Source: a virus. From it: a DNA stretch of 27,098 bases. A model generated the notes under the pieces. The model did not search any database. It worked only from the letters and a program-made list of their open reading frames with translations, and was not told the DNA's origin. Position 1 is the first letter of the stretch, and each line of letters starts with the position of its first letter. Location: positions 1 to 27,098 of the IMG/VR virus record IMGVR_UViG_3300042483_000279. One strand, written 5' to 3'. The position numbers and the translations under genes are program-made. Below, one piece after another: positions 13,189 to 18,462 of the stretch.

Positions 13189-14511
13189 ATGAAAGTCCAT
13201 CAAATAGTCTCTGAAAGAACTGAATCATTGAATGAAGCCGTACCTCTTGTAATAGCAGGTATTGGAATAGGTACAATAATTACCGCAATCTCTGTAGGCA
13301 TGAGTGCTTGGAGTGCCTACGAAATATACAAATTCATTGGCAAATACAACCAAGATCCTGAATCAATTACTGACGACGAATGGAATGATCTATTCATAGA
13401 TGCTGTACTATTGTTTACACCTGGCTTTGCCAAGCTGGGTAAAGCAGGAATACTTAAACTTATTCCTAAGTCATGGCAAAGTAAAGGCGGCAAGTGGTTA
13501 AAAAAGAAAGTTACTGAGCGTCTTGCCCAATTAGAAAAAACAGTAGCTAAAACAGAAAAAATAAACTTGAGAAAATTTGACCCTGACAGTAAAGTAGGGT
13601 TTGAAAAAATTAAAGCCTACTTAAAAATGCGTGGTGCCAATGCTTCCATGAAGGCAGCAGCCCAGGCAAGGATGGGATTTATACCCGATGTAGCCATGAC
13701 TGTGATAAAAACTGTTGTGGGTTTAGAATTTGTAAGAGAATACTACGTGGATTTGTCCGTGTTAGAGGAAGACTACCAAGATTATAAAGCTGGCAAAGAT
13801 TCTCCTTTTGGAAAAATGTCAGAGCAAGAAGCCTATAACAAGTATCAACAGTTAAGAAAGAAACTGTTAGGAGAATTGGCCATTGGTGTTGCCTTAAATA
13901 CTGGAGTGGCCAGCAAATTCTTTGGCGCAATGTCAGGCATGTTTAAAGGTATTGCCACAGGTGCAGCTACACTGGGCGGCGCCAGCATTACAACAACAAA
14001 ATATTTAGGTATGTTTGTTAGCTTGCCTACTAACGTGGCAAAAGGTATTTCTAAATTAATTGAAATGGGGCCTGCGGCCCCAGCTTTCTTGATATTCATG
14101 CGTACCAGTGCTGGTAAAGAATTTTTAAATAGTTCTTTGGTAAGAGCAATTACTGAACCAACAGGGGCATTGACAGCAGCCGCTATTGATTTACTAGAAA
14201 AAGGATTACAGGAAGCTGGACTACTAGATGGTCCACTACCTGGTAAGACCGCAGTAAAACCACCAACTGGTGATGCTGCCGATGGCGCAAGACAAGCTAC
14301 AAATGGTATGAATATTCAATGGGTTGGCAAGAAACTTTACATTAATAATCAACAAATTAGTGATGAAAATGGATATCGTCTAGTAGGCAACGACAAACTT
14401 AATGACATAAAAGCTAGGGTTGGTGTTGCCGGCATTCCTGATCCTACTTTAAAAATACAGGACGACCCTAAGAAAAAATACGGCGTCTATGGTTACGACG
14501 AAATTAAATAA
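13189..14511 (+). CDS. Probable internal (packaged) head protein, hydrophobic
   Basis: This 440-aa protein belongs to no family I recognise. Its N-terminus, MKVHQIVSERTESLNE, resembles the capsid-targeting peptides of T4 internal proteins (MKTYQEFIAE in IPI-III and Alt). L14-N15-E16 before A17 fits the L/I-x-E rule of the gp21 prohead protease. After the cut come hydrophobic Gly-rich stretches at about 17-40, 67-90 and 225-300, able to form or disturb membranes, and a polar C-terminal part with NIQWVGKKLYINNQ. I infer a protein packaged in the head and released at infection, perhaps acting at the host membrane. There is no Shine-Dalgarno; a late-type box directly precedes the ATG. The gene ends in a terminator and overlaps its convergent neighbour by 8 bases. 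Alternative: a minor virion protein outside the head. Confidence 0.5.
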   Translation: MKVHQIVSERTESLNEAVPLVIAGIGIGTIITAISVGMSAWSAYEIYKFIGKYNQDPESITDDEWNDLFIDAVLLFTPGFAKLGKAGILKLIPKSWQSKGGKWLKKKVTERLAQLEKTVAKTEKINLRKFDPDSKVGFEKIKAYLKMRGANASMKAAAQARMGFIPDVAMTVIKTVVGLEFVREYYVDLSVLEEDYQDYKAGKDSPFGKMSEQEAYNKYQQLRKKLLGELAIGVALNTGVASKFFGAMSGMFKGIATGAATLGGASITTTKYLGMFVSLPTNVAKGISKLIEMGPAAPAFLIFMRTSAGKEFLNSSLVRAITEPTGALTAAAIDLLEKGLQEAGLLDGPLPGKTAVKPPTGDAADGARQATNGMNIQWVGKKLYINNQQISDENGYRLVGNDKLNDIKARVGVAGIPDPTLKIQDDPKKKYGVYGYDEIK

Positions 14512-14719
14512 TAGCCATACGGCTATTTTTGGTAATTTCAATATTTTCTTTTATAATCTCATTCATGATCTGCCTATCCTCGTAGCCGTAAACGTGCATT
14601 AGATCCTGACTGCTTACTCCGCCTCGCATGTACCAACTTATGCGAAAGATTTCATCTTTTATTTGTTTTGTATCTAATTCTAAACTGTTAACCAACTCTT
14701 CGATGTCAGATCTAGACAA
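14504..14719 (-). CDS. Small tail-assembly chaperone-like ORF, probably expressed by -1 frameshift from gp26
   Basis: This 71-codon frame begins with TTG at 14719; no ATG or GTG is available between it and the preceding in-frame stop, and no Shine-Dalgarno is visible. The product (IKDEIFRISWYMRGGVSS, then DRQIMNEIIKENIEITKNS) resembles a small helical protein found after gp26 in T4-like marine phages. It lies in the -1 frame relative to gp26. The frame is open back through the end of gp26, so a -1 slip at 14737-14743 would fuse it to gp26 as 77 extra residues, giving about 347 aa. This mirrors the G/GT chaperones that load onto tape measure proteins. Its 3' end overlaps the terminator of the convergent gene. 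Separate translation from TTG cannot be excluded. Confidence 0.6.
   Translation of the reverse strand: MSRSDIEELVNSLELDTKQIKDEIFRISWYMRGGVSSQDLMHVYGYEDRQIMNEIIKENIEITKNSRMAII
14510..14530 (+). terminator. Intrinsic terminator between convergent genes
   Basis: AATAGCC (14510-14516) and GGCTATT (14521-14527) form a perfect 7-bp stem with an ATAC loop, continuing into a T-run to 14530. It starts within the stop codon of the 13189 gene. On the minus strand the same sequence codes for the last residues (N-S-R-M-A-I) of the gp26-linked ORF, so the hairpin is shared by both transcripts. Confidence 0.7.
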
Positions 14720-14743
14720 GGGTAACAGTTTTATACGAAAAAA
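14682..14743 (-). promoter_or_regulatory. Putative -1 ribosomal frameshift signal (slippery site plus stem)
   Basis: On the minus strand the last gp26 codons read AGT TTT TTC GTA TAA, so the heptamer T TTT TTC (14743 to 14737) is correctly phased for tandem -1 slippage. Five bases downstream, AAACTGTTA (14731-14723) pairs perfectly with TAACAGTTT (14690-14682). Two more G-C pairs follow after a single bulge. TGTC and GACA can pair inside the loop. The gp26 TAA stop lies between slippery site and stem. Confidence 0.75.
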
Positions 14744-15546
14744 CTTGATTGGTCCATTACAACTTCAATAGCGTTTTCAGTGCCACAATTGCCGCAAATG
14801 ACTTTTTGTTTTGGCATCTCCCAAAGTTCTTTATTCTTTTCAAGTTTACTCTTGATAAGAGTATAATGTTCTCGGTTAGTGTTAGACAACCACTCTCGAA
14901 TATGATCTTTCTCAGTTACTAATACATTGGGAATTTGAACTGACTCAATGGCAGTTAAAAATACATGTACTTGTATTTCAGCTAGTTTAGCATAGATATC
15001 ATCCATGACTTGTTGCCTACGGTCGATATCTATATCAGCAATCTGACCAAGCATTTTTTGTAATTTAAAATTTTCCAAGTTTACTATTGTCATTTCTTCG
15101 TAGCTTAACGGCTTAAAGTTAATGGTAATTTCTTCGTCAACTACTAGTCTATTGTCAAAATTCTTATCAGCATAGTGATCCATGACACTAGTTAAATCAA
15201 TGGCAAAGTCGTTTTCAGTACCACAGTTAGTACAGGTATGTCCAATACTCATTTCTTTACCGTATGTTGCCATTCTAATGGAAACTAATAATACATCTAG
15301 ATCAATACTGGGCACTTTATGTGCGTCTGTAATATATGGACAACAACTTTCTATTAATTTTACTGTGGCTTCACCGTTAAACAAGCTGTCAGGTGTTTTC
15401 ATTATGAGTTCATCCATGCCAGTCATGGCAAAAATTGGCACTTTACTAACATCTCCTTGTAGAGTACCTTCCTCGTAGTACAGCCCTTTGCTGGGCAAAC
15501 TGATAAACAACTTGGGTTGTCTAAAGTATTTTTGTAATGGATTCAT
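14731..15546 (-). CDS. 26: Baseplate hub/assembly protein gp26 with two CxxC knuckles
   Basis: This 271-aa protein matches the T4 gp26-type baseplate family (T4 gp26 is 208 aa). Its N-terminus has KLFISLPSKGLYY and VPIFAMTGMDELIMKTPDSL, the conserved start of this family and of related tail-assembly chaperones. Two nearly identical knuckles, C105-T-N-C108-GTEN and C251-G-N-C254-GTEN, could together bind one zinc ion. Between them are helices with YEEMTIVNLENFKLQKML. gp26 is required for hub assembly but is not a major part of the finished T4 baseplate, which fits a chaperone role. A late box CATAAATA lies 34 bases upstream. The slippery site at the 3' end suggests a minority of ribosomes produce a longer fusion. 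The tape measure gene starts divergently 66 bases away. Confidence 0.82.
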   Translation of the reverse strand: MNPLQKYFRQPKLFISLPSKGLYYEEGTLQGDVSKVPIFAMTGMDELIMKTPDSLFNGEATVKLIESCCPYITDAHKVPSIDLDVLLVSIRMATYGKEMSIGHTCTNCGTENDFAIDLTSVMDHYADKNFDNRLVVDEEITINFKPLSYEEMTIVNLENFKLQKMLGQIADIDIDRRQQVMDDIYAKLAEIQVHVFLTAIESVQIPNVLVTEKDHIREWLSNTNREHYTLIKSKLEKNKELWEMPKQKVICGNCGTENAIEVVMDQSSFFV

Positions 15547-15612: not shown

Positions 15613-18462
15613 ATGGCTTTAGATAGAAATGATCAGTTAATGATGCAACAAGCGTTTGAAAACGCTTTGAAATCTAGTGGCCGCGGCCCTGTAACTGTAG
15701 GTGGCGGAGGTGCGCCACCAAGCGGTGGTGGCAATCAAGGGTTTGACACAAGTAAAGTTAAAGAAGGCTTGAAAGATGGCGCAGAGTCTTTCCTACATGC
15801 TGCTAAGTCAAGTGCTGATACGTTCCAAGGACTTAGCAAACATGGCGCTAATTTTAGCAATGACCTAATTGGCATGAATGTTGCTGCCGCTGGCAGTAGA
15901 TTGAGCCTAAATGATTTCGCTAACGTTATTGCTAATAACGGAAAACAAATGGCCGGCCTTGGTGGCAGTGTCACTCGCGGTGCTGAAGCATTTGGCAAAT
16001 TAAGCAAGAGTTTCTTTGATAGTAACGCTGGCGACGAACTACAGCAGATGGGATACAATGCTAAAGAACTTAACGAAGTTCTTGCGTTACAAGCCAGTAC
16101 ACAACGTTACACTATGGGTATTGAAGGTGCCGCAGGTGTAAAATCAAGAGAAGCTGCAGCTTCATTAGCTAAAGAGATGGATGCCATTGCCAAACTCACA
16201 GGCAAAAGTAAAGAAGAACAAATGGAAGCTGCTAAGAAACGCAGCACCGACGGACAAATTGAAGCAAAGTTAAGATTAATTGGAATTGAACAAGGTGCCG
16301 CCGCAGAAGCGGCAGCAAGAGAAGGATTCCAAAAACAATTTGCTCAAGCAGAAGCTCGCGGTATGGGACAAATGGCAAAAGAAATGTTTGCCACTGGAAC
16401 AGTTACTAGCGAAGAAGCTGCCACTCAATACGCATTACTAGGCGAGGCCGCACAGAAAACTGGCGAGCAAATGGGCCACTTGGCCAAAGGTAACATTGTT
16501 GCAGCAGAAGCAGCCAACAAGGAAGCAGAAGCAGCCAACGCTCGTAATCAAAGAGATCCAACACTTTTACGAATGGCCGCCATGGGAGATGCTGCAGGCA
16601 GCGTAGGTACAATTTTAAAGAAGAGTACAGAAGACAACATGGCATTACACGATAGTGTAATGAGTGTAGTAAAAGGAAATACAAACTTATTAAAAAGTCA
16701 AACTGATTATGCTACTGCCCTTAGCAAAATTAGAACTGATATTATAGCAAGTCAAGAAGGTCGATTAAAACCTGGCGGAGAACGTGTTAGCGGAGCAACT
16801 CAAGGAGTTATAGCAACACAAATAGCTGGACAAAATCTTGGAGCAGGTGTTGCTGCCGCATCGGAAGTTAAGAATAAAGCGACCGGCGAAAGCATTGCCG
16901 GTGGCGCCCGTCGTATAGGTGAAATTGGAGAACAAACTGCTAACAATCTAGCAGGTCCGGGTAAGAATGCCGCAGTCAATATGGAAGATGCCGCCAGGAA
17001 AGGTCAAAACCCACAACCGTTTGTGCCCAAGCCAGGCGAAGGCAAATACGAAGCAGAAGCAAGAAAAGAAAACGAAAGTGGCGGTGTAGTTGGTGAAATT
17101 ACAAAAGCTCTGAGTAATTTATCAAACATTGGAGCCGACACTCTAAATATTACTGGTAAGGTTACAGGTTTAACACGACATGCAGATGGCGGATATGTTA
17201 GCCAACCAACACTGTCAACTTTAGCAGAAGAAGGTCCTGAGTTTGTATTAAACCAAGGACAGATGAAGGACACTATTGCTGCTGCTGGCATGAGTGGTGT
17301 TAAGAATATACTTGGAAAACTTCCTCCTCCAGACTTGGACACTAAAGAAGACAAATTTAAAGCAGCATACGAATCAATGAAAGGTATGGCTCCGCCAAGG
17401 GGAAATCCTACAGGTGGCATGGACGGATTTGACTTGAGCAGTATATCCAAAGCTATTAGTATGCCAGCCAAAGCACCTGCCGTTGATATGGCTGGCATTG
17501 CCAAAGCTATCAGTATGCCTGCTAAGACAGAACCTAATATCAATATGACAGAAATGTCTAAGACTATTAGCACATCAATCAGTTCCATGACTGGCGGCGA
17601 GTCAACTACTAAACGTGTTCAAAGTGATGACAGTAAGAGTGCTGAAAAAGAAATGTCAGAATTAAAATCAAAGTTTAATGAAGACATGGCCGCAAGAAAA
17701 AACATTCTGATTGAAGGAATGGCTGTTGAAGATAGAAAATTTTCCAAAGTCCAAGCTGTTATGAAGGCAGACGACGAAGCAATAAAGATAAAAGAAGAAT
17801 TTTCAAAAAAACAGGAAGAGCTACAAAAGAAAATTGCTGACGGTATCACATGGGAAACCAGTAAAAAACAAGAATCAGTTGAAGAGACTAAAAAACTTGT
17901 TACAGAACAACTAGCAGTAACTTTACAAGGACAAGAAGCCAGATTATCTGAAATAGAAAAAGAAGAAGCGTTAAAATTAATTGGTATCGAACAAGGTGCC
18001 GAAGCAGAAAAAGCAGCTAGAGAAAAGTATCAAAAAGATACTTCATTATTAAACATGGCTGCTATTGGCGCAGAAGAACCAGAAGCCTCTATGGGTGCCG
18101 GCAAGTACTCAGCACCCATAGCAGCCACTCCTGCTATAGATTTGAATGCCATTAATTTGCCCGGCTTTGGAGCCCAAATGAAAGCCAATGCTGCCAGTGT
18201 GCCTGCTGCAGTAAATAAACCTGCAGAAGAAGCCAAAGCCCAAGCAGACGCGAAAGAACAAGCTGCCAAGGCACCAGCTGCCAAATCTCAAGCTGACGAT
18301 AAACCAGCACAGCGAGGCGGCAAGACCGCTGCTCTAGAAGACGTAGTAAAGGGTTTAGATATGTTAAATATAACTATGAACAAGCTACTTTCACAGAGCG
18401 ATGATTTGGGAAGAAAACAAATCACGGCGCTCGAGAAAAATCCAAAGAACATGTATAGTTAA
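15613..18462 (+). CDS. Tail tape measure-like protein (gp29 role)
   Basis: This 949-aa protein is Ala/Gly/Lys/Glu-rich and largely helical, as expected for a protein that sets tail length and is held inside the tube. The segment DGGYVSQPTLSTLAEEGPEF (about residues 526-545) is a motif repeatedly seen in the C-terminal half of tape measure proteins. Before it lies a long region of Ala-rich helices. A segment with LIGIEQGA and AARE occurs twice, at about 222-245 and 787-810, and KAISMPAK also repeats near 616-640. A strong coiled coil covers about 675-800, and the C-terminus ends in an Ala/Lys-rich linker and a last helix. It is longer than T4 gp29 (590 aa), suggesting a longer tail. It lies divergent from gp26 and its frameshift partner, which supports the role. 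Confidence 0.72.
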   Translation: MALDRNDQLMMQQAFENALKSSGRGPVTVGGGGAPPSGGGNQGFDTSKVKEGLKDGAESFLHAAKSSADTFQGLSKHGANFSNDLIGMNVAAAGSRLSLNDFANVIANNGKQMAGLGGSVTRGAEAFGKLSKSFFDSNAGDELQQMGYNAKELNEVLALQASTQRYTMGIEGAAGVKSREAAASLAKEMDAIAKLTGKSKEEQMEAAKKRSTDGQIEAKLRLIGIEQGAAAEAAAREGFQKQFAQAEARGMGQMAKEMFATGTVTSEEAATQYALLGEAAQKTGEQMGHLAKGNIVAAEAANKEAEAANARNQRDPTLLRMAAMGDAAGSVGTILKKSTEDNMALHDSVMSVVKGNTNLLKSQTDYATALSKIRTDIIASQEGRLKPGGERVSGATQGVIATQIAGQNLGAGVAAASEVKNKATGESIAGGARRIGEIGEQTANNLAGPGKNAAVNMEDAARKGQNPQPFVPKPGEGKYEAEARKENESGGVVGEITKALSNLSNIGADTLNITGKVTGLTRHADGGYVSQPTLSTLAEEGPEFVLNQGQMKDTIAAAGMSGVKNILGKLPPPDLDTKEDKFKAAYESMKGMAPPRGNPTGGMDGFDLSSISKAISMPAKAPAVDMAGIAKAISMPAKTEPNINMTEMSKTISTSISSMTGGESTTKRVQSDDSKSAEKEMSELKSKFNEDMAARKNILIEGMAVEDRKFSKVQAVMKADDEAIKIKEEFSKKQEELQKKIADGITWETSKKQESVEETKKLVTEQLAVTLQGQEARLSEIEKEEALKLIGIEQGAEAEKAAREKYQKDTSLLNMAAIGAEEPEASMGAGKYSAPIAATPAIDLNAINLPGFGAQMKANAASVPAAVNKPAEEAKAQADAKEQAAKAPAAKSQADDKPAQRGGKTAALEDVVKGLDMLNITMNKLLSQSDDLGRKQITALEKNPKNMYS

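Follow-up and report, generated by a model that had tools for sequence, protein, structure and literature searches.

The window analysed here, a 27,098-nucleotide (nt) stretch of the IMG/VR virus record IMGVR_UViG_3300042483_000279, carries a gene resembling gene 26 of phage T4 that ends in the slippery heptamer T TTT TTC and is overlapped by a conserved extension in the -1 frame. Judging from the conservation of this arrangement in relatives, it is very probable that ribosomal -1 slippage on U UUU UUC makes a long tail assembly chaperone (TAC-NC) from the short one (TAC-N). The elements of the locus are the following.

14731 to 15546, minus strand: gp26-like gene, TAC-N (short tail assembly chaperone), 271 amino acids (aa), ATG start
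14737 to 14743, minus strand: slippery heptamer T TTT TTC, in phase with TAC-N
14731 to 14733, minus strand: zero-frame stop TAA of TAC-N, 10 nt after the heptamer start
14504 to 14743, minus strand: -1 frame extension, TAC-C domain, 79 residues from the shift site plus stop; part of the predicted fusion, not an independent gene
14723 to 14731, minus strand: predicted mRNA stem, 5' arm, 9 bp, 5 nt after the heptamer, -14.6 kcal/mol
14682 to 14690, minus strand: predicted mRNA stem, 3' arm, pairing with 14723 to 14731

The 3' end of the minus-strand open reading frame (ORF) from 15546 to 14731 reads CAA TCA AGT TTT TTC GTA TAA. The original prediction for this locus had placed the heptamer in phase near the gp26 stop, and it is indeed found at 14743-14737, before GTA TAA, as an X XXY YYZ heptamer in zero-frame phase. 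It had also described a -1 ORF that is open across the junction and would give a fusion of about 347 aa; this frame has no stop from 14764 until that at 14506-14504, which gives a predicted fusion of 347 aa. The further claim that this ORF lacks an ATG, a GTG, and a Shine-Dalgarno sequence agrees with what we see, as the first ATG or GTG lies only at +114 nt (Met, residue 39 of the extension) and no Shine-Dalgarno sequence precedes the first of the two TTG codons at +24 and +48.

Conservation of the slippery heptamer

We surveyed 82 loci, comprising the window, 63 loci from IMG/VR, 13 named jumbo phages chosen for variety among 62 records, and 5 other T4-like phages. Several of the IMG/VR loci are near-identical to each other, and the 75 complete jumbo-type loci were clustered at 90% into 43 representatives. 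An in-phase run of six T (T6) near the gp26 end is present in 81 of the 82 loci (78 TTTTTTC, 2 TTTTTTT, and 1 TTTTTTG), with Cygsa01 as the locus without it. T TTT TTC stands in phase and at the same place in the window and in 63 of 63 IMG/VR relatives, and all 13 named jumbo phages have T6 followed by C, except for T7 in XacN1 and RAS14; the TTTTTTG belongs to RL38J1, one of the other T4-like phages. The in-phase T6 is thus found in 77 of 77 jumbo-type loci (window, IMG/VR, and named phages), none of which was dropped for lacking it.

At the slip site of the 43 representatives, the first Phe codon is TTT in all 43, which results from selection, as the heptamer finder accepts T6 only; as the second Phe codon, 41 have TTC and 2 have TTT. 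Codon choice is looser at 24 other conserved residues, where 30-79% of the representatives share the most frequent codon. Elsewhere in these genes Phe is spelled TTT 358 times and TTC 124 times, and 14 other Phe-Phe pairs use all four spellings, with TTT TTC in just 2. The zero-frame stop lies 10, 13, 16, 19, 25, 37 or 40 nt past the heptamer start in the 43 representatives, so its position drifts relative to a fixed heptamer. Both the heptamer and the -1 frame show more conservation than coding alone would require.

Downstream hairpins

The predicted stem of the window pairs 14731-14723 with 14690-14682 over 9 bp, with 2 further bp beyond a C.U 1x1 mismatch. The original prediction had its length, its 5-nt spacing, and the 2 additional bp right but took the mismatch for a bulge. 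Both arms are identical in close relatives (L001 to L005 and L011). We folded the 60 nt downstream of the heptamer in 47 phages (the 43 representatives and 4 other T4-like phages) and used 423 stretches from the same loci as controls. A z below -2 was obtained for 19 of the 47 downstream regions versus 37 of the 423 controls, with mean folding z values of -1.58 and -0.29, respectively (Mann-Whitney p = 2.9e-6). The hairpin sequences differ between phages, for instance, L052, L054, L055, Atu_ph07, and XacN1, and a hairpin is practically missing in others, such as L022, L032, L041, Munch, XbC2, and Hallingskeid. A Shine-Dalgarno-like stimulator upstream of the heptamer was present in none of the 43 representatives. 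Because the hairpins are enriched, variable, and missing in some phages, we regard the heptamer as the fixed part of the signal and the stem as an aid that is often, but not always, present.

Slippage of RNA polymerase on the T6 run (transcriptional realignment) could also change the frame in place of the ribosome, and a passage in PMC5009743 gives transcriptional slippage as a known alternative in insertion sequence (IS) elements. The conserved site is a T run, even reaching T7 in two jumbo phages, and this would fit such a mechanism. Efficient slippage of bacterial polymerase usually needs about 8 or more, however, and 41 of the 43 representatives have a run of exactly 6 T. The seventh base in those 41 is C, which suits slippage of tandem tRNA-Phe, and the hairpins located downstream at spacer distance suit a ribosomal mechanism as well, so we regard polymerase slippage as very improbable.

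The -1 frame extension

Each of the 81 loci with T6 has a -1 frame extension, which measures 60-82 residues in the 79 that can be read fully (the contigs of L006 and L014 end before the -1 frame stop), 71-82 residues in the 43 representatives, and 79 in the window. The extension begins with FFR in 40 of the 43 representatives, and its alignment shows a conserved middle (WYMRGG in the group of the window) and an EDR-like motif in most members. The ratio of nonsynonymous to synonymous substitutions (dN/dS) was 0.011-0.108 in 13 pairs of relatives that we chose, and third positions of the -1 frame hold 56% of the differences in 256 pairs that are 2-35% divergent. By these substitution patterns, the -1 frame is coding and under purifying selection. 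AlphaFold2 models the extension as a small domain of four helices with a predicted local distance difference test score (pLDDT) of 90.4. Pfam and PHROG scans of 30 C-domains gave no family common to more than 3 members at E <= 1, and VIA-align of the C-domain gave nothing above Z 4.3.

The downstream ORF might instead be an ordinary separate small gene with its own or a coupled start near the gp26 stop. The records of Phosso, 121Q, GAP32, XbC2, and Syn1 annotate it in this way ('gp51' or hypothetical protein), an ATG lies at +9 to +12 of the -1 frame in Atu_ph07, Phosso, and 121Q, and overlapping start-stop pairs are common in phages. However, ATG, GTG, and TTG are all missing from the first 30 codons (before +90 nt) in 16 of the 43 representatives, PA5oct has no start codon anywhere in the -1 frame, and a Shine-Dalgarno sequence at the first early start is absent in 27 of the 27 remaining representatives, so independent initiation fails as a general explanation. 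The conservation, moreover, starts at FF, upstream of the start codons in most rows, and in a tblastn comparison with Atu_ph07 the match to the window extension begins at residue 1, which is the shift site. A separate gene would also leave the kept T TTT TTC spelling unexplained, and we consider it very unlikely. Relatives thus have a second ORF with no consistent start codon and no Shine-Dalgarno sequence next to a conserved heptamer, as the original prediction would have it for a true frameshift site.

Identity of gp26 and its predicted fusion

The gp26-like ORF matches PF12322 (T4_baseplate; E = 8e-19, 68.6 bits versus a cut-off of 24.5) and phrog_150 (baseplate hub; E = 2.8e-23). In tblastn, the protein matched 62 phage records, including RaK2, 121Q, GAP32, PA5oct, and Atu_ph07 kinds, with 24-30% identity in the 60 rows listed. 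We picked ten other T4-like phages (150-253 kb) from the hit lists, and 8 of these 10 have an in-phase T6 heptamer and a -1 C-domain, with pertopsoe and Cygsa01 lacking the heptamer. The seventh base in the eight is C in IC12, phiAS5, Sf-FS3, Syn1, YB07, and K491, T in phiM12, and G in RL38J1.

When profiles were compared (all E values are those of single comparisons), the jumbo fusion aligned with the fusion of these eight phages across the junction (probability 99.5, E = 6.6e-23). The eight-phage fusion profile aligned in turn with residues 8-244 of the 249 residues of T4 gp51 (probability 97.1, E = 4.8e-11), whereas its alignment with T4 gp26 reached only to about the FF junction (probability 99.3). 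The eight-phage C-domain alone matched the gp51 C terminus with a probability of 92.9, compared to 0.2 for the reversed control. The predicted jumbo fusion thus aligns end to end with its counterparts in other T4-like phages, and the profile of these in turn with T4 gp51, so that the locus can be considered a T4-type tail assembly chaperone. Homology, together with the analogy to known chaperones, supports gp26 as TAC-N and the predicted fusion as TAC-NC.

The AlphaFold2 model of TAC-N has a pLDDT of 88.8. The only hint of a fold shared with a known tail assembly chaperone is 2ob9, that of HK97, with Z 5.7 and a root mean square deviation of 4.5 over 101 of 107 residues, at rank 6 and tied with unrelated chains. 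In BFVD, the best matches that carry a name are hub assembly or baseplate proteins of T4-like phages. BFVD also returned uncharacterised proteins of 438-553 aa (Foldseek probability 1.00, query TM 0.43-0.53) from Ralstonia phages RP12 and RSF1, Erwinia phage Special G, Aeromonas phage PS1, Klebsiella phage Eowyn, and Achromobacter phage Motura, and these are candidate tail chaperones. Foldseek searches of the PDB with the TAC-N and TAC-C models gave nothing at E <= 0.001. In a sequence search of solved structures, matches of TAC-N to HSP90 (E 0.06-0.07) were dismissed as chance, and there were no others.

Among the records, that of one Acinetobacter phage names gp26 'tape measure protein assembly chaperone'. 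The PA5oct record marks two genes upstream of gp26 as seen by electrospray ionization tandem mass spectrometry (ESI-MS/MS), and gp26 is unmarked. A section of PMC3004832 lists T4 gp26 and gp51 as hub assembly chaperones, with gp51 required and absent from the particle.

Observations that weigh against a frameshifted chaperone

Several results speak against the interpretation given above. TTTTTTC occurs 15 times in the window, with 12.4 expected, which is chance level, and the window stem is marginal, with z = -1.62 and an equally good fold in 13 of 200 shuffles (when the bounds were changed and 100 shuffles used, z = -2.64). The significance of the site therefore comes from its conservation in relatives and not from the window alone. 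Strong hairpins are found in about 40% of the folded phages and are weak or absent in many relatives; of the joint conservation of heptamer, -1 frame, and stem that had been proposed, the first two hold, and the stem does so only in this fraction. Pertopsoe (Salmonella phage, L088) and Cygsa01 (Pseudomonas phage, L082) keep the -1 C-domain ORF with T6 missing; both have ATTTTCA immediately before the gp26 stop, and another shift signal or initiation may be in use there.

Other such points concern the function. The jumbo C-domain alone matches other T4-like phages weakly (probabilities 17.8 and 28.8), so its homology rests on collinearity, and the jumbo profile matches single T4 sequences poorly (7.2 for gp51 and 44.1 for gp26). 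The record of Pectobacterium phage CBB labels the gp26 homologue a structural protein, which one would not expect of a pure chaperone, and according to PMC3004832 there is some genetic support for a place of gp26 in the T4 hub. A passage in PMC6102473 names a different gene, gp701, as the tape measure of Atu_ph07, and the divergent gene next to gp26 in the window is an unproven candidate for this function.

The chance-level frequency of TTTTTTC in the window would also fit a heptamer that is a mere by-product of a conserved Phe-Phe pair in an AT-rich gene, with a -1 ORF that arose by chance or is a decayed gene, but this is hardly credible in view of the spelling of Phe and of Phe-Phe pairs elsewhere, the low dN/dS and confident structure model of the -1 frame, and a free codon choice at FF in 0 of 77 jumbo-type loci.

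Neighbouring genes

The gene next to TAC-N is the following.

15613 to 18462, plus strand: divergent 949-aa gene adjoining TAC-N, candidate tape measure protein

The original prediction of a divergent, tape measure-like gene was correct for its orientation and for its distance of 66 bases from the gp26-like gene, but the tape measure identity was not supported by any search. Homologues are located at the same place in many relatives. The 949-aa protein gave nothing over the cut-off in Pfam and PHROG and no match in tblastn of phage records or in PDB sequences, and its profile matched T4 gp29 with a probability of 0.1. The same-place proteins of RaK2, 121Q, and GAP32 match phrog_14121 'virion structural protein', and in the RaK2 record this neighbour is described as resembling a tape measure protein. 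A GPE-type motif, which we take to be a feature of tape measure C termini, is present in the window protein, and similar motifs are present in L041 and L049, among 25 proteins compared, but this does not establish the identity. Atu_ph07 (L064) differs from most other jumbo-type loci in that the large divergent gene does not adjoin gp26; the annotated upstream neighbour there is a small ORF.

On the other side, a convergent 440-aa gene (13189-14511, plus strand) overlaps the -1 frame stop by 8 bases (14504-14511) and has no convincing match in Pfam or PHROG. Other genes of the window encode portal gp20, a late sigma factor, and an SbcC/gp46-like protein (Pfam, PHROG), and the neighbours also include a hub-lysozyme-like protein and a major head protein. 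A 383 kb IMG/VR contig (L002) carries an identical gp26-like protein with an identical junction, so the window most probably belongs to a jumbo phage; the neighbours fit this.

Proposed mechanism and meaning

Most ribosomes would read gp26 (TAC-N, 271 aa) through to the TAA. A smaller share of them, holding tRNA-Phe in both the P and the A site on U UUU UUC, would move back one base, probably aided in this phage by the stem 5 nt downstream, and continue in the -1 frame to give TAC-NC (347 aa) with its predicted helical C-terminal domain. By analogy with lambda gpG and gpGT, both forms may cover the tape measure protein while the tail is being assembled, the C-domain may recruit tail tube subunits, and both forms would leave before the virion is finished.

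Annotation does not reflect this. None of the 13 jumbo records annotates a frameshift. They label gp26 variously as baseplate hub, baseplate hub subunit, base plate, or hypothetical protein, and they either leave the extension unannotated or list it as a short hypothetical ORF. A joined coding sequence for the TAC genes is present in 0 of 23 annotated non-T4 records (13 jumbo and 10 others). The locus now gains a probable function and a corrected gene model, which makes an annotation fix worthwhile. The case for T4-like gp26 and gp51 as tail assembly chaperones is strengthened, and it can be tested in the culturable phages 121Q, RaK2, and PA5oct. The loci also provide a large natural series of frameshift sites in which the heptamer is fixed and the hairpins vary freely. 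It is conceivable, although we lean slightly against it, that the RaK2/Atu_ph07-type jumbo phages are an unrecognised, uniformly frameshifting branch of the T4-like chaperones. In this scenario, frameshifting would be ancestral, T4 genes 26 and 51 would come from a copy of TAC-N fused in frame to TAC-C, the enlarged C-domain would be tuned to a different tail tube protein, and the hairpin would be replaced freely with the heptamer fixed.

Comparison with known systems

T4 genes 26 and 51 were reportedly named TAC-N and TAC-NC in the abstract of Vladimirov, Gautam and Davidson (Virology 2022). T4 differs from the jumbo-phage locus in having these two separate genes where the window has one gene and a putative frameshift, and it has no heptamer at the end of gene 26, in line with the remark in the original prediction that T4 is not known to use this design. 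The gene that comes after gene 26 in T4 is gene 25, which starts in the -1 frame relative to it (TAATG) but without a slippery heptamer; gene 51 is oriented divergently, and a shorter 26' is also annotated. What is shared with the T4-like TAC-N and TAC-NC is a homologous TAC-N (PF12322), a fusion that is collinear with T4 gp51 via intermediate phages, and a poly-T at the TAC-N end. Compared to the other T4-like phages with the heptamer, the jumbo C-domain is longer (79 versus 58-68 residues) and weakly alike.

According to PMC10885494, which cites Vladimirov, Gautam and Davidson 2022, the short and the long TAC are encoded by separate genes in some T4-like phages, in place of frameshifting, and a passage in PMC12846349, citing Vladimirov et al. 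2022, reports poly-T -1 signals in T4-like TAC-N genes. PMC5009743 states in one place that G-T frameshifting is widely conserved in long-tailed phages 'except T4'. Going by these passages, a frameshifted T4-like tail assembly chaperone is of a kind already known, and the jumbo-phage locus is a further case. We found no printed account of a frameshift in RaK2-like jumbo phages in the open-licence literature, and Vladimirov et al. 2022 may cover it.

The original prediction had called gp26 and its fusion the G/GT equivalents of this lineage. This is apt for the layout, and by homology the pair belongs to the T4-type tail assembly chaperones. For lambda gpG and gpGT, a passage in PMC5009743 likewise describes how a -1 frameshift close to the 3' end of the chaperone gene yields a minor, C-extended form, the ratio in lambda being 30:1. 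The difference from lambda and from the TACs of other long-tailed phages is that no sequence homology to them is shown, with HK97 2ob9 as the sole hint from the fold. In Pseudomonas phage Adele and the Vandenendeviridae and Andersonviridae, according to the section of PMC12846349 on this locus, the -1 TAC-C is likewise open in every genome examined and a poly-T is conserved at the TAC-N 3' end. These are other families, however, with the motif GTTTTT instead of TTTTTTC and with the C-domain region between TAC-N and the tape measure gene. A further known case is that of gp26 and the small gp51 'baseplate hub assembly catalyst' of the cyanophages Syn1 and Sf-FS3, which have the same order, the same -1 frame, and a TTTTTTC that starts 10 nt before the stop. 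They differ from the jumbo-phage locus in being annotated as two genes and in having an extension of 64-68 residues.

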